Shown: positions 37,779 through 61,517 of the stretch, piece after piece
Layout: the number at the start of each line of letters is the position of its first letter
Numbering within the stretch: position 1 is the stretch's first letter
DNA from: an uncultured Bacteroidota bacterium
Lineage (GTDB): Bacteria > Bacteroidota > Bacteroidia > Flavobacteriales > Flavobacteriaceae
Direction of reading: 5' to 3'
Length of the DNA: 64,000 nt
Assembly: GCA_902584445.1 (NCBI GenBank)
Contig: CACHZY010000005.1
Span: 1-64,000, forward strand
Notes under the pieces: model-generated
What the model was told of the DNA's origin: nothing
Databases searched by the model: none
Seen by the model: only the letters and a program-made list of their open reading frames with translations
Translations under genes and position numbers: made by a program

Positions 37779-39365
37779 ATGAATAGAAAAATATATTTTC
37801 AATTATTTTTATTATTACTTTTCAGTTGTTCAAGGGCTGAAAAAGAGGTTCAAGAAGACTTATTTTTCTCAAATACAACTGAATCGACAACTGAAAATAG
37901 CTCAAATATTCAAAATACAATCGAAGATTCTAGTAATGGAGGAACTATAGCTGAGGATTCCTCTTCAACTACTCCTAATGAGGAAATTGAAGGTAATGGA
38001 GTAGTAACTATAGGTGGACCGCTTGAAAAATATCTCACATTAAATAAATCGATTACCTATCAAAAAGTTGATGGATTTGGCGCTGGAATAAAGCGAAGGA
38101 CTGAGGATTTATATAAGCTCTCTAGCTCTTTGAGAGAGAAAGTTGAAAAATACTGTTTTCACGATTTAGAGGTAAATATGATTCGCTTTTTTATTTATCA
38201 TGATTTGGAACCTATTAACGATAATGACAATCCTCTAGAATTAGACGAAAGTAAGTTGGATTGGACTCCTTTTGACAGCGATCCAAATAAAAATAGGACG
38301 CGATATGTAGGTGAGGCTTTAAATAATGCAATGTTTTTAAGTAAAAATGGATTTGATCATATAATTGGAAACTGTAATAGTCCGCCTGGTTGGTTAAAAT
38401 CCAACGGAAAACACAACGGTGGTGGAACACTAATAAATGGAGGTGAATCGGAGTACAGTGAATTTTTAATTGCTACGCTAAAGGGACTTAAAACAAGATA
38501 TGGAATTAATATGACTGCAATTTCTCCTACCAATGAGCCAGATTATGAAGTTGCTTATGAGTCTATGGATACACCGCCAACCGAATTGTCTAGCATTATT
38601 TTGAATCTTGATGATCGTCTTGATCGGGAAGGCTTGAGCGATATAAAAATTGTTTCTCCGGAGTGTTTTAGGGTACATCAAAATTCAGAAAGGTCTACAA
38701 CAACATATATCAATGCGATGTTTGCTGATGATAAGGTTAAAAATGCAGTCGATATTGTTGCTACTCATACTTATGCAGATCCCAATCATAATGCTAATTG
38801 GAGGTTATTAAAACAGGCGGCATCTGATAAGCCTGTATGGGTTACAGAGTCAGGAGTCAATCGAAGTTTAGATCAATCTATGAGTGACGCTGCTAACTAC
38901 ATCAAGTGGATTATTAGAGGGTTTAATGAGGGCGGATTGACAGCATATATGTTACATCTTTTTTATGGTGAGGCAGAGGAAAGAGGCTATTCTAGTCTAG
39001 TTGCTTGGACACCTTCAGGGGAAATAATTTTACCAAAAAGATATTATTCCTTAAAACACTTTGCTAATCTTATTAAGCCAGGATACCTTAGAATTTCAGC
39101 CGATTTAAGTGAGGCAAATATGTTTGTACTTGCATTTAAATCTCCAAATGAGGACAAAGTAGTTTTACAAATATTTAACCAGGGTATTGAACAGAATTTA
39201 TCTATTGACGTAATTCCAGGTTCAAAGTCAATTCAACATATTATTACCTCTGACAATGAGGGAGAAGATTTTATTTCAAAAAATTACTATTCCCCTGATA
39301 AGAATTACTTTAACTTAAATGTTCCATCAATGACACTGAACTCGATTATTTTCAATCTGAATTGA
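37779..39365 (+). CDS. GH30-family glycoside hydrolase, lipoprotein (PUL)
   Basis: Lipobox LLFSC; KVDGFGAGIKRRTEDLYKLSS; acid/base ISPTNEPDYE; nucleophile KPVWVTESGVNRS; C-terminal beta domain. Confidence 0.85.
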   Translation: MNRKIYFQLFLLLLFSCSRAEKEVQEDLFFSNTTESTTENSSNIQNTIEDSSNGGTIAEDSSSTTPNEEIEGNGVVTIGGPLEKYLTLNKSITYQKVDGFGAGIKRRTEDLYKLSSSLREKVEKYCFHDLEVNMIRFFIYHDLEPINDNDNPLELDESKLDWTPFDSDPNKNRTRYVGEALNNAMFLSKNGFDHIIGNCNSPPGWLKSNGKHNGGGTLINGGESEYSEFLIATLKGLKTRYGINMTAISPTNEPDYEVAYESMDTPPTELSSIILNLDDRLDREGLSDIKIVSPECFRVHQNSERSTTTYINAMFADDKVKNAVDIVATHTYADPNHNANWRLLKQAASDKPVWVTESGVNRSLDQSMSDAANYIKWIIRGFNEGGLTAYMLHLFYGEAEERGYSSLVAWTPSGEIILPKRYYSLKHFANLIKPGYLRISADLSEANMFVLAFKSPNEDKVVLQIFNQGIEQNLSIDVIPGSKSIQHIITSDNEGEDFISKNYYSPDKNYFNLNVPSMTLNSIIFNLN

Positions 39366-39377
39366 TGGCAAAACATA

Positions 39378-40781
39378 TTATTGATTCTCCATAAGTTGAC
39401 TATCAATCTTTTTGCCAAGGCTATCCATTAATTTATTATATGATTTTAAATGTGATAAATTATTCATTTGTAAAGGGTCTAAATTATTTTCATAAATCAT
39501 TCTGTCTAAAATCTTATCTCCAATATTATATTTCCATTCAGAGTAGAAAAAATTATCAGACATATAAGTGTCACCATTTATATATCTTGAAAAAGCAAAT
39601 GTTTTAGTTGTTTTATTTGGGTCATTTAAATTCTCTACTAATGAGTTTCCTTGAAGATTTTTGGGTCCATTTATATTTAGGAGTTCACAAATAGTAGGGT
39701 ATAGGTCAACTAATTCAGCAAATGAATCAGATTGAGAAGATTTTGTTAATCCTGGAACTTTAATTATTAATGGTACCTGTAACTCTGTCTTGAAGAGACT
39801 ATGCTTTGACCATCTGTTATGTTCTGACAAGCTGAAACCATGATCACTAGTTAAAATTACTATCGTATCCTCAGCAAGACCCAATTCATCCAAAGCATTT
39901 AAAACACGACCGATTTGAGCATCAATATAACTGACACAAGCATAATAAGCATGAATTAGTTTTTTTGCAAGCTTTTCCTCTACATCAACATTTTTGGTAA
40001 TGTCTTTATATGCAGTCAGTTCATACCATGTCTGAGCTCTTTTAGGAGCCGTAAATGGAAAATCTTTGTTAATGGGAAATTTAATTTCAGTTGGATCATA
40101 AAGATCCCAATATTTTTTGGGAGCATTAAAAGGAAGATGAGGTTTTACAAATCCACTAAATAGCAGAAACGGTTTCCCATCATCTTTTAATTTTATAAGA
40201 TCAGAGATAGTTTTTGTTGCAATTTGGCCATCAAAATAGGCGTCATCATCCACTATAGCCGCTTCATAAGCTGGCACCTCTTTTTTCGATTTTTCGTTTT
40301 CGATGTTTTCCTCTAGTTTATAATTTCTCCAAGTTACTTCTTGAGGAGGGTCCCAAACCTCTGACCAGGTGTGTTTCATGTCAGCTGAATTATGTGATAC
40401 TTTTCCATTACTTATTGTAGTGTATCCATTATCCTTAAGTAATCCAGAAAGCGTTATAGCATCTGGCATCTCCTCATCAATTCTTGAGAAATAATTTACA
40501 AAACGGGTTTTATTTGGACGAAACCCTGTAAGTAAACTTGCACGCGAGGCACCACATACTGGAATATTACAAAAAGCATTGTTAAACTGAACTGATGATT
40601 TCGATAGTTCCTCAATATTTGGCGCTATAATATGTTTTTTCCCATAATTAGGCAGCTCAGGTCTTAAGTCATCTACAATAATAAAAAGGACATTTTTTGG
40701 TTTTTTTTCCTGTGAAAAGATTTCCTGTGAAAAAATAAATAGTGACAGAAAAATTATGGATTTAAAGAATTTATATTTCAT
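39378..40781 (-). CDS. S1-family sulfatase (iduronate-2-sulfatase-like), secreted
   Basis: Signal peptide; VLFIIVDDLRPELPNYG; formylglycine motif CGASRASLLTG; LTSDHGFSLSEHNRWSKHSLFKTELQVPLIIKVPG. Confidence 0.92.
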   Translation of the reverse strand: MKYKFFKSIIFLSLFIFSQEIFSQEKKPKNVLFIIVDDLRPELPNYGKKHIIAPNIEELSKSSVQFNNAFCNIPVCGASRASLLTGFRPNKTRFVNYFSRIDEEMPDAITLSGLLKDNGYTTISNGKVSHNSADMKHTWSEVWDPPQEVTWRNYKLEENIENEKSKKEVPAYEAAIVDDDAYFDGQIATKTISDLIKLKDDGKPFLLFSGFVKPHLPFNAPKKYWDLYDPTEIKFPINKDFPFTAPKRAQTWYELTAYKDITKNVDVEEKLAKKLIHAYYACVSYIDAQIGRVLNALDELGLAEDTIVILTSDHGFSLSEHNRWSKHSLFKTELQVPLIIKVPGLTKSSQSDSFAELVDLYPTICELLNINGPKNLQGNSLVENLNDPNKTTKTFAFSRYINGDTYMSDNFFYSEWKYNIGDKILDRMIYENNLDPLQMNNLSHLKSYNKLMDSLGKKIDSQLMENQ

Positions 40782-40820: not shown

Positions 40821-43448
40821 TTATTGTTGGGTTAAAATCATTTTTTTAATGGCGTAATAGGCAGGTTTCGGTTTTAATTTAGAATCAAAAATGAATCGAT
40901 GTTTATTATGATGAGGACCTGGTTTACCATCCACCATACCCCAAGTGTTAAAAGTAACAACACCTTGATCTTTTTTTGAAAGTAAGACACCTATTATATT
41001 TGCATAAGCTTTAGCCTGCCTCTGAAGTGCTTCATTTGAATTATTTCCATCCTCAATTCGGTAATCCATTTCAGTTACATGGAAATCTAAATCGTTTTTA
41101 TGTGCCCAATCGATTAAATCGCCTAAAAATTTTAATTGTGAACTATCATTCGCTAAAGGTTGGTCGCTCCTAAGGTGTGCTTGCCATCCTAGACCATTTA
41201 TTCTCAGTCCTTTTGATCTTAGGTAAAGAATTGTTTTCTTTACTTGCCTCCACATTTTGGGCTCCATTCCCCCATGCTGGTTGAAAACCAAACTGATGTT
41301 GGGTGCATAACGATTGGCAATTTCAAAAGCCTTAATTATATATGAAGGATAACCATTTTCATCTCTCCCAATTTGTACCCACGGGTTTTCCCATTTATCC
41401 ATTCCTGGTTTTTCTTTAAACCAATTTCCTTCTCTTGTTATCGTCTCATTTACTACGTCCATCCACTTTACACTCGGCTCTTGATTCATTTTTTTACACA
41501 GGGCTGTGAAATATTCAGTCATATTTTTTTCGAGTTCTTTTGGGGTTCTATTATCTGCTTTTGCCCACCTCGAAGCTTGTGGGCTTACCGGACCGTGTAT
41601 CCTTAATTTAATTTGGTATTTATCTGCAAAACTTAGATAATCATCTATTAAGGTCCAGTCCCATACTCCAGGGGAAGGATGAACTCTAACTTGTTTTGCG
41701 CAATTCTCGGGAGTTGAGTAAGTAAATTCTCCTAAGAATAGATCTGATACTTTTGTATTTAGCTGATCATGATTTAAAGTTGCCCCAATGACTACATTAT
41801 TGTTATCGTAATTATTTTGATCTAATAATTTTTGAATACCAATTCCAAATTTACTTTTGGGTTTATTGATAAGGGTTTTCTTTGGAGGACTTAAAAAAGC
41901 CAATCCATCTGCTTTAATTTTCTTGTAAATACTTTCATATCCATCGACTTGTATCAAATTTTCTGTTTCTAAGGGATCTTTAGAATAATCAAATAATTCC
42001 TCTTGAATGATATCTTTTTCACTTATTTCTTTCCCAATTTTTGATTTATTGATCCAAAGGGTATACCTGTAATCTGATGATCTAAAGCTGTAGCCCATAT
42101 TTTGATTTCTTAGGTACTGGCTAACTGCATATTCTTTAACGGACTGAACTGAGCCATCCATTAATGGCAAGAGTGATTTGCCATCCAATCCATTATGCAA
42201 AGGAATATTGGCTAGTTCACAAAGTGTTGGAAAAATATCGACAAATTCAGTTGGGGAGTAAACCTTTCTAGGTGTTTGATCTTGAGGGGCATATATAATT
42301 AGAGGGGATCTAGTGGCCTGCTCAAAATTGGAATGCTTATTCCACAAACGGTGATCACCCAAATGATAACCGTGGTCTCCCCAAATAACTATAATGGTGT
42401 TGTCCATTAATCCTTTTGCATTTAATTTCTTTAAGATTTTTCCTATTTGAAAATCGATAAAAGTTACACATGCATAATAACCGTGGATTAATTCTCTTTC
42501 TAAATTATCATCTAGTTGTAATTGTCTATTTTCATCTAATTTATAGTCCCAATCAGGTGCTGAAAATGAGCGCATTTCACCGGAATTGTGATACGATAAT
42601 CTACCTGTATTCTTTGCCCTTTCTCTAAACTCAGCTAATGGCATACGTTCCCTCTTATAAAGATCCCAATATTGTTTTGGGGCGGAAAACGGAAGATGAG
42701 GTTTTCTAAAACCAACTGCCAGGAAAAATGGAGATTTACTGTCTTTGGTCAAATCATCAATCATATCAACTGCTTTAGCTGCAATAACTCCATCTGCATA
42801 TGCCTGATCAGGTTTATCACTAAATGAGACGGGTGGCTTATATTTATTTTTTAGTGATTCGCCTAGATTGCCATTTCTGCTTATGCCATCTTTTTTTATG
42901 ATAGAATTAATGTTAGCCTTTATTTTTTCATTTTGATAGTCTCCAAGAGTAGGGGGTCCGAAGGGTTTGGGGTAAGATAGCTGGTGAGGCTTAACAAATG
43001 GAATACTCCATGAAGGGGCATCGCTTTTTTTATCTACTCCCCTGGGGTCGAATATTTTTCCAACTCCAGCAGTAATAAATCCCATGGCTTTGAAATGTTG
43101 TGGAAGGGTGACAATATTGGGCTTCTTATCTCTCATTTTGGTATTTAAATCGTAAACCTTGGTATAATCTGGACGTTTTCCTGTCAAAAGACTTATCCTA
43201 GACGGACTACAAATCGCTTGTTGTGTGTGATTATTTAAAAATAAGGTTGACTTACGCGCTAAGAAATCAAGATTAGGTGTTATAGCCATCGCATCACCAT
43301 AGCTTCTTATAGTTGGTTTTAAATCATCAACTGCGATGAAAACAATATTATAGGAAGTATTGTTTTGAGCTTTACTAAATGTCAGAAACAATAAGTAAAT
43401 TACAACAAATGTATTTCTGTATTTTTTCCTTGATGAAATTAGAACCAA
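40821..43448 (-). CDS. Bifunctional protein: N-terminal S1 sulfatase fused to C-terminal GH10 endo-xylanase domain
   Basis: 875 aa. Sulfatase: NIVFIAVDDLKPTIRSYG, CSPSRISLLTG, GDHGYHLGDHRLWNKHSNFE. Linker SPPKKTLINKPKSKFG. GH10: IKLRIHGPV, MDVVNETITREGNW (acid/base), GWQAHLRSDQP, FHVTEMDYRI (nucleophile). TTG start by ORF track. Confidence 0.9.
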   Translation of the reverse strand: MVLISSRKKYRNTFVVIYLLFLTFSKAQNNTSYNIVFIAVDDLKPTIRSYGDAMAITPNLDFLARKSTLFLNNHTQQAICSPSRISLLTGKRPDYTKVYDLNTKMRDKKPNIVTLPQHFKAMGFITAGVGKIFDPRGVDKKSDAPSWSIPFVKPHQLSYPKPFGPPTLGDYQNEKIKANINSIIKKDGISRNGNLGESLKNKYKPPVSFSDKPDQAYADGVIAAKAVDMIDDLTKDSKSPFFLAVGFRKPHLPFSAPKQYWDLYKRERMPLAEFRERAKNTGRLSYHNSGEMRSFSAPDWDYKLDENRQLQLDDNLERELIHGYYACVTFIDFQIGKILKKLNAKGLMDNTIIVIWGDHGYHLGDHRLWNKHSNFEQATRSPLIIYAPQDQTPRKVYSPTEFVDIFPTLCELANIPLHNGLDGKSLLPLMDGSVQSVKEYAVSQYLRNQNMGYSFRSSDYRYTLWINKSKIGKEISEKDIIQEELFDYSKDPLETENLIQVDGYESIYKKIKADGLAFLSPPKKTLINKPKSKFGIGIQKLLDQNNYDNNNVVIGATLNHDQLNTKVSDLFLGEFTYSTPENCAKQVRVHPSPGVWDWTLIDDYLSFADKYQIKLRIHGPVSPQASRWAKADNRTPKELEKNMTEYFTALCKKMNQEPSVKWMDVVNETITREGNWFKEKPGMDKWENPWVQIGRDENGYPSYIIKAFEIANRYAPNISLVFNQHGGMEPKMWRQVKKTILYLRSKGLRINGLGWQAHLRSDQPLANDSSQLKFLGDLIDWAHKNDLDFHVTEMDYRIEDGNNSNEALQRQAKAYANIIGVLLSKKDQGVVTFNTWGMVDGKPGPHHNKHRFIFDSKLKPKPAYYAIKKMILTQQ

Positions 43449-43572: not shown

Positions 43573-43923
43573 TTACTTAGTATCAGCTTCTTTTCTTGCT
43601 TTGTTACTCAGACTCATGACCTTATTCGCCATTTTTTTTCCAAACCGATCAGTTAGTTTATTTTTAGCGTTCACATATTCTTCAGTATAAATCTCTCTTT
43701 TTTGCTCTTGTGAAAGTCCTTTGCCTCTGATTTTTTTCGATGCGTTTACCACGCGATCTAAAAAAACTTGATTAATAAAAGCCGTGTCCTCTTCTGTAAG
43801 TTCCATATTTTTAGCAACATAATCTGAAAATAGTTTTGCTCTATCTACTTGATATTTATTTGCAGTTTGTGCAAGGCCAACTATAGGCAAAGCAAGAAAA
43901 AGAATTAAAAATAATTTTTTCAT
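43573..43923 (-). CDS. Small secreted helical protein of the PUL (Spy/CpxP-like by composition)
   Basis: MKKLFLILFLALPIVGLAQ signal peptide then charged helical region MELTEEDTAFINQVFLDRVVNASKKIRGKGLSQEQKREIYTEEYVNAKNKLTDRFGKKMANKVMSLSNKARKE; 10 nt after susD-like stop. Confidence 0.6.
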   Translation of the reverse strand: MKKLFLILFLALPIVGLAQTANKYQVDRAKLFSDYVAKNMELTEEDTAFINQVFLDRVVNASKKIRGKGLSQEQKREIYTEEYVNAKNKLTDRFGKKMANKVMSLSNKARKEADTK

Positions 43924-43933
43924 TTTAAATACT

Positions 43934-45472
43934 TTAATCAATTAATTCGTTAGTGTTGATTTCATCCGTTGGAAAAGGCAAAAACATAACTTTACCTTCA
44001 TCTTCTGATAGAATAAGATCTCTGTTAGCTACATAATGAGCAGTACCAATTTTATCGTTATTTGGTTTAATAGTATTCTCCAAGAAATATTGGAAACCTC
44101 TTCTTCTGTTATTATGTGCATCCTGTCCCTCTCCTAAAAGTTCAAACTTATACTCATCCATAATTGCGTCTCTAAATGATGCTTGACCTTGACTATATTC
44201 AGCTCGAGCAGTTACTCCTGCCCTAGAAAGAACTTCATTAAGATAAATCATTTCCTCACCATTTTGAAGTTCGTTTGATATTTCGGCTAACATCAAAAGT
44301 AAGTCAGCATAACGATATATAAGAATATTTTGACTGTTGTATTGTTGGTTATGAGAAGTGTCTTTTTCAACAAATTTAAAGAAGTAGGGATGTGCATTCC
44401 TGAAGTTATTTCTATTTTGTCTTACAGGCCAAACCTCAACTGGGTTACCATTATCTGCACGATTCCAAGAAGATAAATAAGTCCCAGCAATTCGATTGTC
44501 ATTAGGGTAAGTAGCTACGTGATAATCATAAAAAGTTGCAAGAACACTGAACCATCCAAAATGCATCCCCATTTTATATTTAAATGGAGTATAGTTTCTT
44601 CCCATTTGAGAATTCGCTGCAGCTTCAGAAATTTGAAGCTCAAAAATTGATTCCGTAGAATTTTCTCCATCAGTACTAAAAAGGCTACCAAAATCGCTAA
44701 CTAAAGTATATTGTCCGTAAGCTTTTTTCGCTTCATTATAGGCCTCTTGCCAATAGTTACTAATCGATGGATCAGCAATCGTTGCATTGGTAGCCATAGT
44801 CATATACAATTTTGCCAATAACATTGAAGCAGCGTGTTGTTTAGGATAACCCTTGCCAGCATCCCCATTCATAAGGCTTTGAGCCATTTTAGCATCCGAA
44901 ACAATTTGAGCGTAAACTTCAGCCTGAGTAGATTTAGCTTTATTAAGGTTATCAGATGAGGGTAATTCTAACCATAAAGGAATGTCTCCCCACAAACGAA
45001 CTAAATTAAAATAGGACCATGCTCTAATAAAATATGCATGACCAGCTACATCATTAATAGGGTCAAGTGCATCATTTTCATTGATTGCTACATATGAAAT
45101 TATTGCATTACTCCTAGCAATTGCAGAGTAGAGTCCCCGCCATAGAAATGCTGAATCAGCATCTAGAGTGGGCTTTAATGAATATAAGTTAGCATTATTT
45201 ACATTGTTTACATTGTTACCATTTTTTCCGGTACCAAATAGTCCTGAAAAACCATTTACTACGAAATACCTTCTTTCTTGGGCATCATAATTGGTTAAGG
45301 CTTCATAGGCGCCGTCCCTTGCAGCTGCAGCTGTGTTGGGGTCAGTGTATATATTACTATCAAGAAAAATTGGTGATTCATCAAGATCACAGGAAAGATA
45401 AATTCCTGAAAGCATTATAAATAATAGGGCTTTGAAGTAATTTGATATATTGTTTATTATAAATTTTTTCAT
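43934..45472 (-). CDS. SusD/RagB-family glycan-binding lipoprotein
   Basis: Lipobox YLSC; AAARDGAYEALTNYDAQERRYFVVNGFSG; HAYFIRAWSYFNLVRLWGDIPL; ILIYRYADLLLMLAEISNEL; C-terminal LILSEDEGKVMFLPFPTDEINTN. Confidence 0.95.
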   Translation of the reverse strand: MKKFIINNISNYFKALLFIMLSGIYLSCDLDESPIFLDSNIYTDPNTAAAARDGAYEALTNYDAQERRYFVVNGFSGLFGTGKNGNNVNNVNNANLYSLKPTLDADSAFLWRGLYSAIARSNAIISYVAINENDALDPINDVAGHAYFIRAWSYFNLVRLWGDIPLWLELPSSDNLNKAKSTQAEVYAQIVSDAKMAQSLMNGDAGKGYPKQHAASMLLAKLYMTMATNATIADPSISNYWQEAYNEAKKAYGQYTLVSDFGSLFSTDGENSTESIFELQISEAAANSQMGRNYTPFKYKMGMHFGWFSVLATFYDYHVATYPNDNRIAGTYLSSWNRADNGNPVEVWPVRQNRNNFRNAHPYFFKFVEKDTSHNQQYNSQNILIYRYADLLLMLAEISNELQNGEEMIYLNEVLSRAGVTARAEYSQGQASFRDAIMDEYKFELLGEGQDAHNNRRRGFQYFLENTIKPNNDKIGTAHYVANRDLILSEDEGKVMFLPFPTDEINTNELID

Positions 45473-45483
45473 GATTTCGTATA

Positions 45484-48400
45484 TTAAAAGTTCATGTTAA
45501 TTCCTACCAAAATATTCTTAGCGTTTGGAGGACTGTGCCAATCCACACCTTGAATAAGACCTGTCCACATAAAGCTTGTGACCTCAGGATCAAAGCCAGT
45601 ATAGTCTGTCCAAGTAAACAAGTTTTGACCAGTAACATAAACACTTAGTTTTGACGGTTTAAATGCTGACGCGCCTCCAAAGAACTCATTCACAGGAACA
45701 TCATAAGCCAATGTTACATTATTTAATCTAAGGAAACTTCCATCTTCTAAAAAGTTGTCAGTCATTGTCCTTCTGTTTATATGTTTTTGATACCCAACTT
45801 TTGGATAAGTGGTATTAGGGTTTTCAGGGGTCCAAGCGTTAAAATAGGCATCTGACATTATATTTCTAGCAAAGTTTCCTCCCTCAGCCATTGCTGTCCC
45901 TAGTTGTGGTGTTGCTCCATTAGCTATTTGATTACCTTCAACACCATTAAATAGCATACTTAAAGATAAATTTTTGTATGAAGCATTAATGTTAAATCCA
46001 TAAACAAAGTCAGGATTAGGGTTCCCAATAATCGTCCTATCTAATGTATTTACCTCGCCATCACCGTTTGAATCAATAATCTTGAGATCACCTGGCTCAG
46101 ACATAACACCATCAATTAGATACATTTGATCATCCTGTTGAAAGATACCATCAGTTTTCCAACCATAAAAAAGCGCAGCTTCCTCACCATCAATAAATGC
46201 ATTTGCAGGATGAGAAAAATGTTGGCCTCTACTTATTGACTGGCCTTGATAAAAAGCTCTTTTCTCTAATTTTCCATCAATCAAAATATCAGCAGGTGGC
46301 AAACCTAGATTTACAATCTTAGTTCTATTAAATGCTATGTTTCCACCTATTGAAAGGTTTAAGTCCTCTCTTTCCAATGCTGCTATATCAAGTCCAAGTT
46401 CAATTCCTTTGTTCTCAAGTTCCCCTCTGTTTAGAGAAATATTAGAAAAACCTGATGAGGTAGGTATTGGGGCAACTTGAAGCAGATCTTTTGTAGTCTT
46501 ATCGTACACATCTACAGTTCCAGAAATCCTACCATTTAAAATTCCAAAATCAACTCCAACATTTATTTGCTCCGTAGTCTCCCAAGTTAATTGATCATTA
46601 GCAATATTATTTAAGATTAAAGGAATAGTAGTTCCATTACCAGGAGTACCATATAATACGTTTGGATCTGAACCAAAATTTGAAAGGGTTGCGTATGATC
46701 CTATACCATGATTTCCAATTTGACCCCATCCTGCCCTTACTTTAAAGTTAGAAAAAAGATCCAAATCTTTTATAAAATCCTCACTGCCTGCTCTCCAAGC
46801 AAAGGCAAATGAGGGGAAAAAGCCATATCTGTTGTCTTCACTGAATTTTGAGACCCCATCTCTCCTGAAAGTTGAGGTTAAAACATATTTGTCTCTAAAT
46901 GTGTAATTAAATCTTCCCAATAATGAAAACATCTTTTGGTCTTGTGCAATATACGCTAAGGGGGTTGTTATGTTGGACCCTAGAAAAGGTTGCCTTACGG
47001 TTAACTGAGTAGAATCAAAATTTGTTACTATGTAAACACTTTTTTCGACATCTCTGACATCATAAGTTACACCAAGTGTTGCATTTACTCTATGATTTTT
47101 ATTAAAGTTTCGGTTAAATCTCAAAAAATTATTAACCTGATAAGACTTTTGATTTAAACCGTTTAGCACTAACATTCCGTTATTAACTGCTCCTTGGAAG
47201 GTTGTTACTCCATAAAAACGTCTTCTGTCTTTACTTCTCATATTTCCTCCAGCCTTGAATTCGTATGAAAGACCTTTGATAGGGAAATCATATTTTACAG
47301 ACAAAGAACCAATAAGTCTATCCTCTACTGATTCGTCATGATAATCATCTATCCAAGTGTAAGGGTTTGCATTAAAGTCATCGTCATCTTGTGCTAAATC
47401 AGGATCGGTAAAGTCATCTATTATACTTGGATTAGCTGGTCTAAAAGAAAGAATATTTCTTACAAAACTTTGCTTGTTTCCAATTAGGTCGCCACCTTCA
47501 GAAAAATCTGATTCAGAAAAGAAAGCACTAAATCTAGCCTCAACTTTTAAATTATCAGTAACATTTTGGTTAACATTAATTCTGATGTCTCCCGATTTAA
47601 AACCTGAATTTTTTACAAGTCCAGCTTGGTCATTGAAACCTGCTGAGATATAATAGTCTCCCTTCTCACTCCCTCCAGATACAGAAGCTCCAAAATTTGT
47701 GCTTTTACCAACTTGTAAAACTTCATCTTGCCAATCAGTCAGTGAAGCCGGTTCAGCTTGTAATACATTACCTGAATAACCAAAAACTGTTCCGTCAATT
47801 ACCTCCCAATTTCGAGGGTTGCCTGCCCAGTCTTGAACGTCATTATCGTAATTTATGTAATCCATAGGGTCAAGAACATCAATTCTTTTTGAAAGACTTC
47901 TGAATGAAGAACTATAGAATACATTTATATCATTTTTATCTTTTTTACCTTTTTTAGTTGTAATTAAAACTACACCATTAGCTCCCCTAGAACCATATAT
48001 AGCAGTAGCAGATGCATCTTTTAGTATTTGCATACTTTCAATATCTCTAGGATTTATACCATTTAGTCCATTTTGTTGCTCTTGGCCAGTATTTCCAAAA
48101 CCACCTGTTCCTTGAGTACCTTCTCCAGCAGATGAGATAATAACACCATCAACAACATAAAGAGGCTCGTTATTCCCTCTTAAACTGTTTGTTCCTCTTA
48201 TTCTTACACTAATTCCTGAGTTAGGATTAGCTGCGTTTTGTGTTACTTGAACACCAGCAGCCCTACCTTGAAGTAATTGATCAATAGTAACGGATTGTCT
48301 AGCAATATTGTCCTCCACTTTCACAGAAGCTACGGACCCTGTTAGATCCCGCTTTAATACTGTTCCATATCCGACAACTACTACCTCGTCAAGCTCAGAT

Positions 48401-48687
48401 ACGTCAGGACTTAAATTTACATTAACTGTACTTTTGCCAGTAATATTGACTTGGCTTTCAAGAAAGCCAATGTAAGAAAAAATTAGTGTGTCAGATCCTT
48501 CAGGGATATTTACACTGTAATTACCATCAAAATCAGTAATAGATCCAACTCCATCTGATCCTTTAACAGATACCGTTGCCCCAGGAAGTGGGTTTCCTGT
48601 ATCGTCAAAAACCACTCCACTAACAATGGAATCTTGGGCCATTATTAATGAGGGTAACATTAAAAGTGTTATTAAAAACTTTTTCAT
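45484..48687 (-). CDS. SusC/RagA-family TonB-dependent outer membrane transporter
   Basis: Carboxypeptidase-like N-domain (VSGVVFDDTGNPLPGATVSVKGS), TonB box DEVVVVGYGT, plug NSGISVRIRGTNSLRGNNEPLYVVDGVII...ASATAIYGSRGANGVVLITTKKG, 1067 aa. Confidence 0.96.
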   Translation of the reverse strand: MKKFLITLLMLPSLIMAQDSIVSGVVFDDTGNPLPGATVSVKGSDGVGSITDFDGNYSVNIPEGSDTLIFSYIGFLESQVNITGKSTVNVNLSPDVSELDEVVVVGYGTVLKRDLTGSVASVKVEDNIARQSVTIDQLLQGRAAGVQVTQNAANPNSGISVRIRGTNSLRGNNEPLYVVDGVIISSAGEGTQGTGGFGNTGQEQQNGLNGINPRDIESMQILKDASATAIYGSRGANGVVLITTKKGKKDKNDINVFYSSSFRSLSKRIDVLDPMDYINYDNDVQDWAGNPRNWEVIDGTVFGYSGNVLQAEPASLTDWQDEVLQVGKSTNFGASVSGGSEKGDYYISAGFNDQAGLVKNSGFKSGDIRINVNQNVTDNLKVEARFSAFFSESDFSEGGDLIGNKQSFVRNILSFRPANPSIIDDFTDPDLAQDDDDFNANPYTWIDDYHDESVEDRLIGSLSVKYDFPIKGLSYEFKAGGNMRSKDRRRFYGVTTFQGAVNNGMLVLNGLNQKSYQVNNFLRFNRNFNKNHRVNATLGVTYDVRDVEKSVYIVTNFDSTQLTVRQPFLGSNITTPLAYIAQDQKMFSLLGRFNYTFRDKYVLTSTFRRDGVSKFSEDNRYGFFPSFAFAWRAGSEDFIKDLDLFSNFKVRAGWGQIGNHGIGSYATLSNFGSDPNVLYGTPGNGTTIPLILNNIANDQLTWETTEQINVGVDFGILNGRISGTVDVYDKTTKDLLQVAPIPTSSGFSNISLNRGELENKGIELGLDIAALEREDLNLSIGGNIAFNRTKIVNLGLPPADILIDGKLEKRAFYQGQSISRGQHFSHPANAFIDGEEAALFYGWKTDGIFQQDDQMYLIDGVMSEPGDLKIIDSNGDGEVNTLDRTIIGNPNPDFVYGFNINASYKNLSLSMLFNGVEGNQIANGATPQLGTAMAEGGNFARNIMSDAYFNAWTPENPNTTYPKVGYQKHINRRTMTDNFLEDGSFLRLNNVTLAYDVPVNEFFGGASAFKPSKLSVYVTGQNLFTWTDYTGFDPEVTSFMWTGLIQGVDWHSPPNAKNILVGINMNF

Positions 48688-48848: not shown

Positions 48849-49583
48849 TTAATCAACCTTAAATGAAAAGACTATGGAGTAAGAGCTATTGTTGTTAGAA
48901 TCAGTTGCTTTAACTCTCCAATAGTAATTATTTCCTGAACTAACTTGTACAGACTTAGATTTAGCTGATAGGTTTTTGTTTGAAGAAATAGGCTCTTGTA
49001 ATCCATCAGTTGTATCAATATAAAGGCCATAAGTAAGGGATGAATTTTCTGGGTGAGATCCCTCCCAGCTTAGCTCAACTGAAGTAGTGCTTGATGGGAA
49101 TACATGTCCAGAAGAAGGAGATATAAGAGTTGATGGATAAGGGGGATAGTTACTTATTCCATTCCCTGATAAATAGAATTTCCAAGTAGAAGATTCAGCA
49201 GTCTTGGATGTGCCATTCCTTTTTGACGTAACCTTCCATGAGTATGGTGTACCATTGCTTAGTGTAACCGCTTTGTTTGTAGACGTTATGTTTGTTTGAT
49301 TGATTACTTGATTAGAATTTAAATTAGTAATTCTAAGATCATAACTATCTGTATTATTTCCTGCAGTCCATTGAAAGTTTACACTACTTTGAGAATTACT
49401 TACAGATGTTCCTTCCTCACAGACTTTGTTGTTCGTAGGACTTGTTAGCATTGCCACAGAGGGAGGATCAACTGTTTGAACGGGAGGGGTGATTACATCA
49501 TCACTACCACCGTCACCTCCACCTCCACAAGAAATTATGAAAAGGGATGCAAACGCAAAATATTTGAAAAACACCTTTTTCAT
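48849..49583 (-). CDS. Two-domain Fn3-like lipoprotein coupled to the upstream T9SS giant protein
   Basis: Lipobox FIISC followed by GGGGDGGSDD; PYSWKVTSKRN..., NYYWRVKATDSNNNSS; ATGA overlap with 49580..54553; homologous to 34439..35122. Confidence 0.78.
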   Translation of the reverse strand: MKKVFFKYFAFASLFIISCGGGGDGGSDDVITPPVQTVDPPSVAMLTSPTNNKVCEEGTSVSNSQSSVNFQWTAGNNTDSYDLRITNLNSNQVINQTNITSTNKAVTLSNGTPYSWKVTSKRNGTSKTAESSTWKFYLSGNGISNYPPYPSTLISPSSGHVFPSSTTSVELSWEGSHPENSSLTYGLYIDTTDGLQEPISSNKNLSAKSKSVQVSSGNNYYWRVKATDSNNNSSYSIVFSFKVD

Positions 49584-52500
49584 TCTCTAACTATTTTAAC
49601 TGTTTTATCAACTGTTTTACCGCTTAATTGAATCAGGTAAATCCCTTTTGAAAATTCTTCTAAATTGATTTGAACCTTTCTGCTAGATTGAATTTCGTTA
49701 CAACTCGTTTTAAGGATATTACCATCTCCATCAATTACTCTAATATCTACAGTACTGTCTTTTCCATGAATATATAGGTTTACATTATCCTTTGTTGGAT
49801 TGGGATAGAACTCTACTTCTTCACTTATAAATACTTCCTCTGTGTATGATCCTTGGCAAGATTTATCAGTCCTAACCATTAGAAAGTTTACACCTTTTTT
49901 GAGATCAATTTTAGGATTTGAATGGTCAAAATCTTTTTCAATACCATTGTGAACGATAGTATATTTGTCTGAGCCACTTAGATCAAACGAAATAGACCTA
50001 TTTGCATTATTAACTCTCGAGGAAGCGGATAGGGGAGCTGGCTCCATGATGTTAATATCAAAACACTGATTATAACCACTCTTATCCTCAACAGTGAAAC
50101 AAAGGTTGTACTGACCAGTATTTAAATTAGTTATTGATTTAGAATATCCACTTGATGAATTTAAGTTATGAGTATCGTTCCCATTAATTGTAAGGGTGTA
50201 GTTTAAATTTTTGTCTTTGGCAGATACATCTATTGAACCATCGGATGAACCTCGACAACTTAAATTTTCAATTGAAATAGAAAAATTATCATTAGGAAGA
50301 GAGAATATTTTATTACCGTTTACATCATTGGAATTTGAGTATGGATCATTTGGATTGGCATCATTTTGATTAATTACTCCGTCTTTGTCAGAATCATAAA
50401 TTAGCTCTACAACATCATAATTAATATCATTTGCTGAACCTTGATAACCACTTCTCATTTGAACAATCTCAAAATAACCGTCCCCATCTAAATCAACCGG
50501 TATTTTGAATCCTTTGAACCATCCCGACGGATCAATAAACCCAGACGAATTCTTATGATTTTCTGGAAACACAACCTTTGTTGGAATAAATTTTTTTCCA
50601 TTATTTATAAAAATAAAATAGTTGTAATCTCTACTTGACATTTCATCAGCTCCAGTAGAATTGAAGTACCAGCCATTTTGGGGGACTATATCCACATCTC
50701 CATCATTATCGAGATCGACTACGTGGATCCCATTAGCATGGTTATATGACAGGTCATAATTAAAATTATCGGAATCCATGACTCCATTATGATTATTACT
50801 TAAATCTATATTGAAATCTTTATATGAGGACCAACCTATCCATTTGCTTGTAATATCTGCTCCATCATGGTCAAAAACTCTTATGTGACCCTGTTTATAG
50901 GTATAATTTTCCATGAATAATAAAATATATTCATATTCATCATCTTCATCCAAATTTTCTACAAATACGCACCAGTCATCAGCAATTACATAGTCCTGAT
51001 CAATTCCTTCAAAAATATTAACAGTATTATATGAATTAAAATCTATTTGATCATTAATATTAAAATTCAATATTTCAAGAGATAAAAATTGGTGTGCCTC
51101 TTCATGTAAATCATATGAAGATTGATAACCGTGATTTTCCCAATATTCGTCACCTGAAAATCCAATATGGTTTCCATGTTTATACTTTTTTCTAAATAGT
51201 GGTAAATATAGTTTACCTCCTTTCTCATAGACCAAATTAGAGTCAAAGGAGTTAGGATATTTTAGAAATTCCTCCCTGGTAAAAGCAAAATTCAAACTGA
51301 AGACTTTTCCCTCCTTTGAATCATTTATATCATAATACCTGATTATATGCGCTTCCCTTTTGTTATTTATCGAAGTCATATTTTCTCTTGTATTGTAAGC
51401 ACTTGTTATAACTTCATCAACTCCATCTCTGTCAATATCAAAAGCCGTTGAATTATATCTATTCAAAGGACACTTTGTGAACTCCCCATATTGAAATGTA
51501 TCATCAATTTCATATTCTTTGAAGCCATTACCTGTATTGATAAATAATTTATCGTGCGTGTTAAAAGGACAACCATCAATATAAAAATCTGGCTGATACC
51601 CATCTCTTCCATGATAATTTTGAGTATGATGAAAAATGTCTACCAACCCATCACCATTAAAATCTGAAACACTTCTATGAATTTGAGCAGCATCTCCTTT
51701 AACAAAAATTGAATAATCTTCATCATACTCAAAAGATATGATTCCATTATTATTTTTTTGAATTAAAAGAGTAGCAAATGAACCAACTTCAGGATCACTT
51801 CCAACTGGTATAACAAGATCAATTAGCCCGTCTCCATTCCAATCAGAGCTATAATTCATATATCTGTTAAGAAAAATCTGTTTGTCTTTTGTAAAACCAG
51901 ATTTTTGAATTGCAAGATCAATCAGCCCTTGCATATTTTCAATTGTATTTTTGTGAACCTTACTTACTTTAATTTCATCTAATGTCCTGGTTTGATCATT
52001 TCCTTCATTACCCCCTGATTCATTACCCTCATTTACAGTTACAGTCAAGGTGATATTTTTAGAAAAGGCTTCATAATTATCATCTTCCGCTTGATTAAGT
52101 GTTATTTGGGTAGTTCCTGTTCCAACCAAAGTAACAGTATTTCCAGATACAGTAGCTACACTTAAATTGGAAGAACTGTATGTAATTAAACCACTGCTTC
52201 TGGAGCTTGCATTCATATTAAATTGTGAGTCATTTAAATTTTTACTAATGTTTTCAAAACCAATTAATGACGCTGCAGCGCTATGCTTACTATTATTTCC
52301 TGATGTTACAGTCAAGGTTATATTCTTAGAAAAGGCTTCATAATTATCATCTTCCGCTTGATTAAGTGTTATTTGGGTAGTTCCTGTTCCAACTAAAGTA
52401 ACAGTATTTCCAGATACAGATGCTACATTTGGGTTTAAGGAGGTGTATGTTATCGAACCAGTGCTATTGGAACTTGCATTAATATTAAAATCAGGGTCAT

Positions 52501-54553
52501 CAATATTTTTGTTAATGTTTTCAAATCCAATTAATGATTCAGCAGCACTTTGTTTGCCATAGCTTACTGGATACTCATAAGCCCCGATATCAGGATTGAC
52601 TCTAACACTACTATTTATATCGTAGAGGGGAATATTATTGTTTTGAACCCCGTTATCAACTAGATAACTACTTTGTAGTAAATCAAAATCAAATGCAGCA
52701 GAATTTTTAAATAAACTCTCTTTTTCAGATCTTTTATCTACATAAAAACCATTTGGGAAAAATGATATTCCTGTATTGGAAACCTCTCCAAAAGCCAAAA
52801 CATTATTTGATCCTGTAACAGCATTTGGATTATTCTGAGTATTTATACTGAAAATTTGAAATGCATTATCACTGGCTTGTTTTGCCCAGCTTACATTATT
52901 AAAAACTTTCACATTATATGAACTATGGATCGTTATACCAGAAGTACCCTGACGACCATGATTAAGTGCATCTTTCCAGTCTACTCCATAAGTTGTATTT
53001 ACATTTGTGGGGATTTCACCATTTTCAAAAATGGTATTGTTAGCAACAATAGAATTATTGGTTTTATGTACGACAAGACCATTAAGCCCATTGCCATAGG
53101 ATACATTATTAGCAAAGTAAAAAGTTCCTTTGTATTGACCATTAGGATTTTGGTCATTAGCTCCCGATCCATTGCTATTATTTCGAGTTATGTAACAACC
53201 TGATCCGTCAATGATATAGTCTTGAACATCACACCCGTATTTATCACTTTTTGGAGAATTAGCAGTTACTCCATTACAGGTGCCATTGTTCATATATGTC
53301 TTATTGAAATATGGGATTTTATTAATGTTATCATAAGTCCTATTATGAGTAATACGCATTTTAATTGTATAGGTCTTATCATCTAGATGTTTAGATTGCG
53401 CAATAACTATTGCACTTTCCGCATTGAAGGACCACCAAGTTGTATTGTACACCTGATTATGAGCAATTACTACATAATCACCGTTATTTACCCTAATTCC
53501 CGAATTGGGACAATTATAAACTTTATTATGATGTAAAATAATATGGTGTCCACTCCAAATAGCAATACCTCTCCCAGTAAATTTTTTCTGGGGCTGTACA
53601 TTTGGATTACTTGCAACTAGATTCACAAAATTAGTTCTGTTAGCAATCGCTTGACTATAAGTAATATTTGCATTAGGCCCCTCAATTTCAAAACCTGAAA
53701 TTTCTAGATAGCTTGTTTCAGTACCTGAATTACCTCCAATAAAACCGCCCATACCATCAAATTTTATTTTAGGTTGCTCTCCAATATAATTTCTTATAAC
53801 CAATGGGTTGTAAATATCTGGCGCGGTAGCAGCATTATTGTATGCCAATGACAAGTTAACCACTTGGTTATTATTTGTCCCCGATCCATAATTACTATTG
53901 TAATAAGTTCCTGAGCGGACATAGATTACATCTCCCTTTTGCCAAGAGTTTACTGCTTGCTGAATAGTATTGAATGGACTCGCCAAGCTACCATTTCCAC
54001 CTCCTCCAGCGGTTGATGATACGTATAGATTAGACGTAGACTTATTTTCAAGGGTTAACGCATCAATATAATAAGTACCAGAACTTGCAAAAATTAATTT
54101 AATTTTTCCAGAGGTACTCGCTGTAGTTGGAATAAATTTGAAAGAATAATATGACCACTCATTTGATCTTATTGTTTGAGTCTGAGGGGTTTCTTCAGCA
54201 GCATTTCCCCAACCATCTTTTATTGTAACACTAATAGAATTTCCTTTTTTAGACTTGGCATAAAAGGAAATATTTACTTCTTGCCCTATTTGTTTATTAA
54301 AATTTGAAGCATCATAGTTAATTAAGGTGTGCTCTCCTCCGGAAATCACTTTTAATGATCCTGACTGTTCGAAAAAATCACTGTCTGAATTAGTAAAGTC
54401 TAAATTCTCAGGTGCTGCTTTCCATTTGCCATGAACATTAGATTCGAAACTCCCAATTCCTCCAGGCGTTAACTGACTATAAAGTGTCTGATTTATTAAA
54501 CAAATAATTAAAATAAAAAAAAGAAAGCCACTATTTATGATTGATTTCAACAT
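49580..54553 (-). CDS. Giant T9SS-sorted protein: CBM-like N-domain, right-handed parallel beta-helix, two Ig-like repeats, FG-GAP/VCBS repeats, C-terminal sorting domain
   Basis: 1657 aa; signal peptide; jelly-roll-like NISFYAKSKKGNSISVTIKDGWG...YIDALTLENKS; beta-helix LYVSSTAGGGGNGSLASPFNTIQQAVNSWQKGDVIYVRSGTY; DWNGDGLIDLVIP, DFNGDGLVDIFHH, DIDRDGVDEVITS, DLDNDGDVDIVPQ, DLDGDGYFEIVQM; terminal YPNPTKDNVNLYIHG...SKGIYLIQLSGKTVDKTVKIVRE. Confidence 0.85.
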   Translation of the reverse strand: MLKSIINSGFLFFILIICLINQTLYSQLTPGGIGSFESNVHGKWKAAPENLDFTNSDSDFFEQSGSLKVISGGEHTLINYDASNFNKQIGQEVNISFYAKSKKGNSISVTIKDGWGNAAEETPQTQTIRSNEWSYYSFKFIPTTASTSGKIKLIFASSGTYYIDALTLENKSTSNLYVSSTAGGGGNGSLASPFNTIQQAVNSWQKGDVIYVRSGTYYNSNYGSGTNNNQVVNLSLAYNNAATAPDIYNPLVIRNYIGEQPKIKFDGMGGFIGGNSGTETSYLEISGFEIEGPNANITYSQAIANRTNFVNLVASNPNVQPQKKFTGRGIAIWSGHHIILHHNKVYNCPNSGIRVNNGDYVVIAHNQVYNTTWWSFNAESAIVIAQSKHLDDKTYTIKMRITHNRTYDNINKIPYFNKTYMNNGTCNGVTANSPKSDKYGCDVQDYIIDGSGCYITRNNSNGSGANDQNPNGQYKGTFYFANNVSYGNGLNGLVVHKTNNSIVANNTIFENGEIPTNVNTTYGVDWKDALNHGRQGTSGITIHSSYNVKVFNNVSWAKQASDNAFQIFSINTQNNPNAVTGSNNVLAFGEVSNTGISFFPNGFYVDKRSEKESLFKNSAAFDFDLLQSSYLVDNGVQNNNIPLYDINSSVRVNPDIGAYEYPVSYGKQSAAESLIGFENINKNIDDPDFNINASSNSTGSITYTSLNPNVASVSGNTVTLVGTGTTQITLNQAEDDNYEAFSKNITLTVTSGNNSKHSAAASLIGFENISKNLNDSQFNMNASSRSSGLITYSSSNLSVATVSGNTVTLVGTGTTQITLNQAEDDNYEAFSKNITLTVTVNEGNESGGNEGNDQTRTLDEIKVSKVHKNTIENMQGLIDLAIQKSGFTKDKQIFLNRYMNYSSDWNGDGLIDLVIPVGSDPEVGSFATLLIQKNNNGIISFEYDEDYSIFVKGDAAQIHRSVSDFNGDGLVDIFHHTQNYHGRDGYQPDFYIDGCPFNTHDKLFINTGNGFKEYEIDDTFQYGEFTKCPLNRYNSTAFDIDRDGVDEVITSAYNTRENMTSINNKREAHIIRYYDINDSKEGKVFSLNFAFTREEFLKYPNSFDSNLVYEKGGKLYLPLFRKKYKHGNHIGFSGDEYWENHGYQSSYDLHEEAHQFLSLEILNFNINDQIDFNSYNTVNIFEGIDQDYVIADDWCVFVENLDEDDEYEYILLFMENYTYKQGHIRVFDHDGADITSKWIGWSSYKDFNIDLSNNHNGVMDSDNFNYDLSYNHANGIHVVDLDNDGDVDIVPQNGWYFNSTGADEMSSRDYNYFIFINNGKKFIPTKVVFPENHKNSSGFIDPSGWFKGFKIPVDLDGDGYFEIVQMRSGYQGSANDINYDVVELIYDSDKDGVINQNDANPNDPYSNSNDVNGNKIFSLPNDNFSISIENLSCRGSSDGSIDVSAKDKNLNYTLTINGNDTHNLNSSSGYSKSITNLNTGQYNLCFTVEDKSGYNQCFDINIMEPAPLSASSRVNNANRSISFDLSGSDKYTIVHNGIEKDFDHSNPKIDLKKGVNFLMVRTDKSCQGSYTEEVFISEEVEFYPNPTKDNVNLYIHGKDSTVDIRVIDGDGNILKTSCNEIQSSRKVQINLEEFSKGIYLIQLSGKTVDKTVKIVRE
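52034..52556 (-). repeat. Two tandem ~265-bp coding repeats (Ig-like Big_2-type domains) in the giant T9SS protein
   Basis: Both copies contain the near-identical block AAGGCTTCATAATTATCATCTTCCGCTTGATTAAGTGTTATTTGGGTAGTTCCTGTTCCAAC; protein repeat SVSGNTVTLVGTGTTQITLNQAEDDNYEAFSKNITLTVT. Confidence 0.9.
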
Positions 54554-54601: not shown

Positions 54602-55699
54602 TTAAAACTTCCAGTCAGAACCAAAATACGTTTTAATTGGCGAAATACTTCCATCATCGTTATGTTTAAATCGGGTAAATTTAACATTTCTCAAATGGGT
54701 TTTACCAGAGATTTCGGTGTCATGGTAAAAAAGGTACCATTGGTCGTTAATTTTAATTGTCGAGTGATGATTAGTCCAACCTTGAACGGGCTCCCCTAAT
54801 ATTCCTTGATAGGTAAAAGGGCCATAAGGGTTATCACCAGTTGCATAAGCTAAATTATGTGAATCTCCAGTGGAGTAACTAAGGTAATAAACATCGCCAA
54901 TTTTATGAATCCATGGAGCTTCAAAAAATCTAATTTCAAGCTCTTTTGTAAGTATAGGCTTCCCCGATTTGTTTAAGATTTGAATCTGCTTAACTTCTTC
55001 ATCAAATTCCAGCATGTTATTTTTTAGTTTTGCCATACGTGGCATAATGGCTGGATTATTTTCCACACCAAGATCTGTCAATGATCCTTTTGGATCAAAC
55101 TCACCAGATTCCCATTGTTGTAATTGACCTCCCCAAATACCTCCAAAATACATATAGGCACTTCCGTCATCATCAATAAATGTTGTTGGGTCTATGCTAT
55201 AACTACCTCTCATAGGTTTTGGTCTGGCTTTAAACGGGCCAGCAGGATTTTTTGATGTTGCAACTCCAATTCTGAAAATTTCGTCTTTATCTTTTGCGGG
55301 AAAATACAGGTAATAAGTCCCATTTTTATAAGCTGCGTCAGGTGCCCAAAATCTGCTTTTGGCCCATTTTACGTCTTCTACAGAAAGCCCCACAGGATGA
55401 ATCTTTAAGTCACTCCCATCTTTATTCATAGAAATTACATGATAATCCTTCATATTAAAATGATTTCCAGTGTCGTCCTCTACACTTCCAGTTTCAATAT
55501 CGTGAGAGGCATATATATAAACTCTTCCTTCAAAAAGGTGGGCGGATGGATCAGCCGTGTAGATCTCACTTATTAAGGGCGAATTTTTAAAATCGGTGTT
55601 GGGATTAATTAATTCGATTGGCTGAGCAATCATTTTTAATGAAGCCAAACAAGCTAATAATAATAATTCTTTGCAGGTAATTTTAAAAAAATTATACAT
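54602..55699 (-). CDS. GH43-family glycoside hydrolase (beta-xylosidase/arabinofuranosidase-like)
   Basis: ADPSAHLFEGRVYIYASHD, AKSRFWAPDAAYKNGTYYLYFPA, SIDPTTFIDDDGSAYMYFGG, FFEAPWIHKIGDVYYLSYSTG, NHHSTIKINDQWYLFYHD. ATG at 55699 preferred; the TTG at 55723 overlaps a promoter motif. Confidence 0.92.
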   Translation of the reverse strand: MYNFFKITCKELLLLACLASLKMIAQPIELINPNTDFKNSPLISEIYTADPSAHLFEGRVYIYASHDIETGSVEDDTGNHFNMKDYHVISMNKDGSDLKIHPVGLSVEDVKWAKSRFWAPDAAYKNGTYYLYFPAKDKDEIFRIGVATSKNPAGPFKARPKPMRGSYSIDPTTFIDDDGSAYMYFGGIWGGQLQQWESGEFDPKGSLTDLGVENNPAIMPRMAKLKNNMLEFDEEVKQIQILNKSGKPILTKELEIRFFEAPWIHKIGDVYYLSYSTGDSHNLAYATGDNPYGPFTYQGILGEPVQGWTNHHSTIKINDQWYLFYHDTEISGKTHLRNVKFTRFKHNDDGSISPIKTYFGSDWKF

Positions 55700-55720
55700 T
55701 TTAAATTTTAAATTAATAAG

Positions 55721-55728
55721 CAAAAGTA
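55721..55728 (-). promoter_or_regulatory. TACTTTTG (TAnnTTTG -7 element) upstream of GH43
   Basis: CAAAAGTA on + strand, 21 nt upstream of the preferred ATG. Confidence 0.45.
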
Positions 55729-55803: not shown

Positions 55804-57207
55804 TTAATAGTGTACAGGAATGTAATCCTTTGATTCAAGAATTCCTTCTAAAGAGGGATTAATTTTATTGAATTTGGATATACGATCCAATGGGTGAAAA
55901 GTCGGCTTTATTAGAGGCATTTTGTATGTGATTAAGAAATCACCTTGTTCAACCATCCAATCATGTAGTTTAACCTCAAGTTTTTCTTTAATTTTTTGAT
56001 AGCTATCAATTTGTGCAATATTATTGTGTTCATAGGGGTCATTTTCCAAATCATATAGTTCTTCATAAGGAGTTTCTTTAAAAGCATTGGAGCCTCTAAT
56101 AATAAATTTATTTACTTCTTCATTATCCCCTAGGTTGTTTTGAACTACTTCATTCGAATTAAAGTTTTTTATATACTTATATTTCTTATCTCTGACAGAT
56201 CTAGAGGGGAAAACATAACACTTTTGAATGTTCTGACGAGTTGCTACGCCATATACATAATCTTTAATGGGTTTATCTTTACCTTTTAAAATTGAGAGAA
56301 AACTTTTACCATCAAGTCCATATGATTTGCCTCCAGCAAGATCAATAATTGTAGGTAGTATGTCAATGACTGAAACAATTTGATTAGAGGAAATCCCCTT
56401 CTTAATAATTTTTGGCCATCGTACGATTAAAGGTATTTTTAAGCCAGTCTCTTTAACACTCCATTTACCCTTCAAGCTGTGGTCAGATAAGTAAAAAAAG
56501 ACCCCATTGTCAAGTACATTTAAACGAGATAGCATTGATATCGTTTTTTCCAATTGGATATTATTGTCTTTTATATTTTGATAATATCCTGCTTTAAAAG
56601 AGCTATTTTGACCTTTTCCTCTAGGAGTTGTTGGGTCATGACTTAAATCCATATCTAAATATGACGTTTCTTTGGGGTAGGGGCCATGTGGATAGTCTGA
56701 AGAAAAAATTATGCAATAAGGTTTATTGGTACTTTTTATATAATCTTCAACTTTATTTAATGGTATTTGTCTACTTTTTTCTTTTCCAAAAAACTTCGAC
56801 CAGTTAAATTTTTTATTAGGATAAATGTGTCCTTTTCCAGCAAGGATTACCTCGTATCCTAACGGTTTAAGAAGACTATTAATTTCTTTAACATTTTTTA
56901 CCGGAAGGTGATTAGCCATACATCCATTTTTAATAGGGTATAAACCGGTAAATAGCTGTGATCTACTTGGAGAACAGATTGCTTGAGAAGTGTAGGCGTT
57001 ATTAAATTTTATTCCCTCCCTTGCAAGCCTATCAGCCCCAGACGTTGATACTTCTGGATTTCCATAGGCACCATAATCCCATTGATTTTGGTCATCTGAA
57101 ATATAAATAAAGATATTTGGAGGTGTGCTGGTTTTGTTCTCATATCTGCCATATATAAGTCCAGTTAAAATTGATATTAAATAAATCTTATAGAGGAAAT
57201 ATATCAT
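55804..57207 (-). CDS. S1-family sulfatase
   Basis: NIFIYISDDQNQWDYGAYGNPEVSTSGADRLAREGIKFNNAYTSQAICSPSRSQLFTGLYPIKNG; FYLSDHSLKGKWSVKETGLKIPLIVRWP. Confidence 0.92.
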   Translation of the reverse strand: MIYFLYKIYLISILTGLIYGRYENKTSTPPNIFIYISDDQNQWDYGAYGNPEVSTSGADRLAREGIKFNNAYTSQAICSPSRSQLFTGLYPIKNGCMANHLPVKNVKEINSLLKPLGYEVILAGKGHIYPNKKFNWSKFFGKEKSRQIPLNKVEDYIKSTNKPYCIIFSSDYPHGPYPKETSYLDMDLSHDPTTPRGKGQNSSFKAGYYQNIKDNNIQLEKTISMLSRLNVLDNGVFFYLSDHSLKGKWSVKETGLKIPLIVRWPKIIKKGISSNQIVSVIDILPTIIDLAGGKSYGLDGKSFLSILKGKDKPIKDYVYGVATRQNIQKCYVFPSRSVRDKKYKYIKNFNSNEVVQNNLGDNEEVNKFIIRGSNAFKETPYEELYDLENDPYEHNNIAQIDSYQKIKEKLEVKLHDWMVEQGDFLITYKMPLIKPTFHPLDRISKFNKINPSLEGILESKDYIPVHY

Positions 57208-61513: not shown

Positions 61514-61517
61514 AACA

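Follow-up and report, generated by a model that had tools for sequence, protein, structure and literature searches.

One of the main substrates predicted for bloom Bacteroidetes is sulfated xylan, and the SusC-like proteins of predicted sulfated-xylan loci are expressed during blooms (Krüger et al. 2019; PMC6794258). The same work describes these loci as marked by 'a sulfatase domain-containing GH10', in a pattern conserved in Formosa, Aurantivirga and Polaribacter (PMC6794258). In the passages devoted to them, these loci resemble the one described here in domain pairing, in make-up (sulfatases with GH3 or with GH30/GH43/GH10) and in belonging to the same group of marine Bacteroidetes, but are treated as a genomic pattern only, and their active sites, linkers and fusion history are not analyzed. 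An S1 sulfatase and a glycoside hydrolase are also joined, by molecule name, in the GH78/sulfatase P36 (6HR5) of an ulvan locus, a precedent that differs in uniting subfamily S1_25 with GH78. P18_S1_7 of Formosa agariphila is listed in a review as an endo-2-sulfo-D-xylose sulfatase, within a polyspecific subfamily, S1_7, that also includes a kappa-carrageenan 4-sulfatase (PMC9096561). In the main texts of the open-licence literature we found neither a characterised enzyme for sulfated xylan nor a biochemical study of any sulfatase-GH10 fusion.

A sulfatase-GH10 fusion in a xylan-type locus

We analyzed a stretch of 64,000 nucleotides of contig CACHZY010000005.1 (the window), which carries an S1 sulfatase and a GH10 in one gene (Table 1). 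A preliminary description of the window reported one uninterrupted ORF of 875 residues, and this is borne out: both Pfam domains are encoded on the minus strand with no internal stop codon, and the start codon, TTG, is also found in-frame at the matching position in two sister species. The active-site motifs named there are likewise present (C80-S-P-S-R84, VNE668TI and TE793MD). The pairing itself, which had seemed unfamiliar, was published in 2019 in the loci cited above (PMC6794258); the fusion architecture is therefore not new, but known as a genomic pattern for predicted sulfated-xylan loci.

Table 1. Features of the fused gene and of the surrounding locus, with positions in the window
Feature	Position	Strand	Basis
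S1 sulfatase-GH10 fusion ORF, 875 aa	40821..43448	-	ORF list, Pfam, conserved fusions
Signal peptide, residues 1-27 (...FSKA/QNN), no lipobox Cys	43368..43448	-	read by eye
S1 sulfatase domain and C-terminal subdomain, residues 34-513	41910..43349	-	Pfam, alignments, structure comparison
Linker, residues 514-546, Lys/Pro-rich	41811..41909	-	interdomain comparison, dN/dS, structure model
GH10 domain, residues 547-869	40842..41810	-	Pfam, alignments
GH30-like enzyme, lipoprotein-type signal	37779..39365	+	ORF list, Pfam
Second S1 sulfatase, directly downstream of fusion	39378..40781	-	ORF list, Pfam
122-aa secreted protein, predicted helical	43573..43941	-	homology to inserted interdomain domain
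SusD-like lipoprotein	43934..45472	-	Pfam
SusC-like TonB-dependent transporter	45484..48687	-	named by sequence and position beside SusD
244-aa secreted protein, weak Ig/fn3-like matches	48849..49583	-	Pfam
1657-aa T9SS-secreted protein	49580..54553	-	Pfam, sequence reading
GH43	54602..55723	-	Pfam
Third S1 sulfatase	55804..57207	-	profile match
HTCS hybrid two-component regulator	57377..61513	+	profile match
Second, separate GH10 with usual 'GHPLLWHES' motif	61389..62888	+	profile match, sequence
Formylglycine-generating-enzyme-like protein (sulfatase-modifying factor family)	62933..63955	-	profile match

The locus fits the published type as it is set out in the relevant passages, with sulfatase and GH10 in one ORF, SusC/D, more sulfatases and GH30/GH43. 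In related genomes GH3 and several sulfatases follow the fusion, and the locus types of the window and of these genomes match two patterns described there (PMC6794258). The N-terminal part of the 1657-aa protein reads like a right-handed β-helix; this protein may be a candidate for the PL9-CBM22 protein of the same passages, and Pfam gave no PL9 match in it. The second GH10 ORF, as listed, overlaps the HTCS gene, and its true start is probably near 61518, where a signal peptide begins. Four same-genus genomes hold further loci with related S1 sulfatases (G006:C9, G007:C2, G000:C32 and G014:C63), some of which also hold a related GH10 as a separate gene. A suspected second fusion in one genome (G167, L038) proved to be two adjacent lipoprotein genes.

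Conservation of the fused gene

Three sister genomes within the genus carry the fusion without interruption (99, 96 and 88% identity), and it occurs in eight genomes of seven other genera at 52–68% identity, with the junction intact throughout. Our search for homologous S1-GH10 architectures by a scan of species genomes brought the total to 52 fused ORFs, the window's own counted and re-fetched copies taken out. Cultured carriers are Lutibacter sp. HS1-25, L. agarilyticus DSM 29150 and Reichenbachiella faecimaris DSM 26133. A phylum-wide sample returned the same family among the matches listed and nothing further, and a plasmid search gave partial matches but no full-length fusion. Were the gene an assembly artefact, with two ORFs wrongly joined, the identical architecture would not be expected in so many independent genomes; these rule the artefact out, we found no evidence in its favor, and its probability is negligible. 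The fusion is thus a true, well-conserved feature. Some of its sequence detail we have not found described, namely an invariant Asp for His in the sulfatase, the loss of cleft Trp residues from the GH10, the re-splitting suggested in Polaribacter, and a helical protein that is separate here and inserted elsewhere.

Purifying selection acts strongly on both halves, with dN/dS of 0.06–0.08 against two sister species (95% and 88% identical). In the same comparisons the linker gives 0.11–0.16, a value drawn from few changes in a short stretch. An AlphaFold model built from an alignment of 40 fusions has a mean pLDDT of 85; its two domains are confident, confidence falls at residues 521–530, and its pTM of 0.61 leaves the mutual placement of the sulfatase and GH10 domains unsure. 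The Lys/Pro-rich linker of the preliminary description is present in the window but is confined to this lineage, its length and content being different elsewhere.

The sulfatase half

PF00884 (Sulfatase) matches residues 34–415 with an E-value of 1e-44 (153 bits; cut-off 25), followed by SGSH_C at 364–513, and the C-x-P-S-R formylglycine motif (C80-S-P-S-R84) identifies this half as an S1 sulfatase. Conserved in its active site are C80, the predicted FGly site, with R84, the metal ligands D41, D42, D358 and H359, and K131, H251 and K371. Among solved structures, 6HHM is closest in both sequence (33% identity) and fold (TM-score 0.87 on the target), and human iduronate-2-sulfatase (IDS) comes second. 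Iduronate-2-sulfatase is another S1_7 member. Possible membership of the fusion in S1_7 is suggested by these top sequence and fold matches, which are to solved structures. The resemblance to 6HHM, the structure of P18_S1_7 from F. agariphila, is the strongest pointer to the probable substrate: the fold, FGly and metal site are as in the fusion, but P18_S1_7 acts on ulvan, has no GH10 partner and carries His at a position where the fusion clade has Asp. IDS (5FQL) likewise shares the fold and most active-site residues, and its substrate carries a 2-O-sulfate, but it is 29% identical, acts on another sugar and has the same His.

The residue in question is D134, which occupies the position of the catalytic-site His beside K131 in IDS and 6HHM. 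All 40 aligned fusions have the Asp, and the His is retained by more distant unfused relatives. Such a substitution might mean that the sulfatase half is inactive or serves mainly as a binding domain. However, across the same 40 fusions the FGly Cys, the Arg, the Lys and the metal ligands show little or no variation, and dN/dS of this half is 0.06–0.07, which together make either reading very improbable.

The GH10 half

PF00331 (Glyco_hydro_10) matches residues 547–869 (E 1e-42, 147 bits against a cut-off of 22), and with the fold match to GH10 4K68 this places the second half in GH10. The acid/base E668 and the nucleophile E793 are invariant among the 40 fusions, and K585, H618, N667, Q756, H758 and W836 are retained; most subsite residues are kept, and the matches of this half are xylanases. 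GH10 endo-xylanases (8HKG, 1VBR and 4K68) have the same fold, the same catalytic Glu pair and several of the same subsite residues, but identity to 4K68 is ~22% in the structure alignment, and two Trp residues of their cleft, that of the 'WHSQ' stretch and that of the C-terminal cleft loop, have no counterpart here in the alignments. In place of the usual GH10 motif, a 'HGPxSPQASxW'-like motif is found across the clade, in fused and unfused members alike. With two cleft Trp lost, it should not be taken for granted that this half acts on plain xylan.

The altered cleft would also suit a sulfated polymer that contains xylose but is not a plain β-1,4-xylan, for example a β-1,3/1,4-xylan of mixed linkage, an ulvan-like polymer or a glucuronoxylan, on which the enzyme would otherwise act as proposed below. 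The activity of the nearest sulfatase on ulvan points the same way, as does the β-helix-like protein of the locus, which could be a uronate lyase. We nevertheless regard such a substrate as unlikely, given that GH10, GH43 and GH30 form the usual xylan set and that no rhamnosidase or lyase family was found among the PUL genes scanned by Pfam.

Proposed function

We propose, with a little better than an even chance of being right, that this is a sulfated-xylan utilization locus whose fusion gene encodes a bifunctional periplasmic enzyme, which would remove 2-O-sulfate from internal xylose and cut the backbone. Fragments of sulfated xylan made at the cell surface would enter through SusC/SusD; the S1_7-type half, once matured to formylglycine, would take the 2-O-sulfate off xylose within the chain; and the GH10 half would then cleave the β-1,4-xylan backbone beside the freed residue, leaving GH43, GH30 and the other sulfatases to complete breakdown. 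Fusing the halves would co-locate desulfation and cleavage and fix their ratio. The secreted protein of the preliminary description does have a plain signal peptide, but because it has neither a lipobox nor a T9SS tail, its last domain being the GH10, a periplasmic location, judged solely from the type of signal, is more likely than release.

The sulfated-xylan reading is favored because 6HHM, the closest solved sulfatase, is a xylose-2-sulfatase with endo action, because the locus is of xylan type (GH30, GH43 and another GH10 beside two further sulfatases, HTCS and an FGE-like protein), and because Polaribacter carries separate S1 and GH10 genes side by side. On these grounds the coupled desulfation and xylan cleavage put forward in the preliminary description is the best-supported interpretation, and is supported in part. 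It appears to be the best explanation of the fusion as a whole since the domains and catalytic residues are largely intact, the GH10 matches xylanases, both halves are held by purifying selection, other genomes combine the fusion gene with GH3 and more sulfatases, and the passages cited above independently predict sulfated xylan for such loci, with SusC-like expression in blooms (PMC6794258). The features that weigh against it are the polyspecificity of S1_7, the Asp in place of a catalytic-site His and the two missing GH10 cleft Trp. It is conceivable, though doubtful, that the fused clade is a distinct type of enzyme, an endo-xylan-2-sulfatase with Asp for His and a GH10 cleft rebuilt for sulfated xylan, in which desulfation and cleavage are mechanistically coupled. 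The fusion protein offers a single testable target that could reveal both the identity of the polymer and the order of sulfate and backbone removal, and the clade-wide active-site changes point to where to look.

Changes of fusion state and of the interdomain region

Fused genes cluster in the trees of both domains, but the fused or unfused state must have changed 7 times on the GH10 tree and 8 times on the sulfatase tree, both being quick trees with SH-aLRT support only. Polaribacter encodes the sulfatase and GH10 in separate adjoining genes that nest among fused relatives, which suggests that the fusion was re-split there. These genes and the numbers of state changes do not support a single fusion inherited unchanged. 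The Reichenbachiella fusion takes different positions in the two trees.

The region between the domains ranges from ~20 to 210 residues across fusions and varies in content. This variability, the low model confidence in the linker and the repeated changes of fusion state would also fit the opposite order of action, in which the GH10 takes sulfated xylan directly, through a cleft perhaps opened to sulfated sugars by the loss of two Trp, and the sulfatase acts later on short products, the two being fused for export and dosage rather than for coupled catalysis. The nearest characterised sulfatase is endo-acting, however, which fits desulfation first, and we consider the GH10-first order improbable. 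In one group of fusions (L098) the interdomain region includes a domain with homology to the window's 122-aa protein (35% over 69 aa, E 3e-13), and the interdomain domain of another group (L106) gives a weaker match (E 5e-6). Both the window and close relatives of it encode this protein in a gene of its own beside SusD, which in the window lies just upstream of the fusion; neither Pfam nor NCBIfam gave a family match for it.

The fusion of R. faecimaris (L125:9986-13471; 1161 aa) carries a CBM_4_9 between sulfatase and GH10 and ends in a GH101_dom-5-like piece. An uncultured Bacteroidetes group has tailed sulfatases of the fusion clade, ~634 aa long, with no GH10 in the stretch compared (loci L105, L108, L109, L113, L114, L115, L117, L118, L121 and L123).
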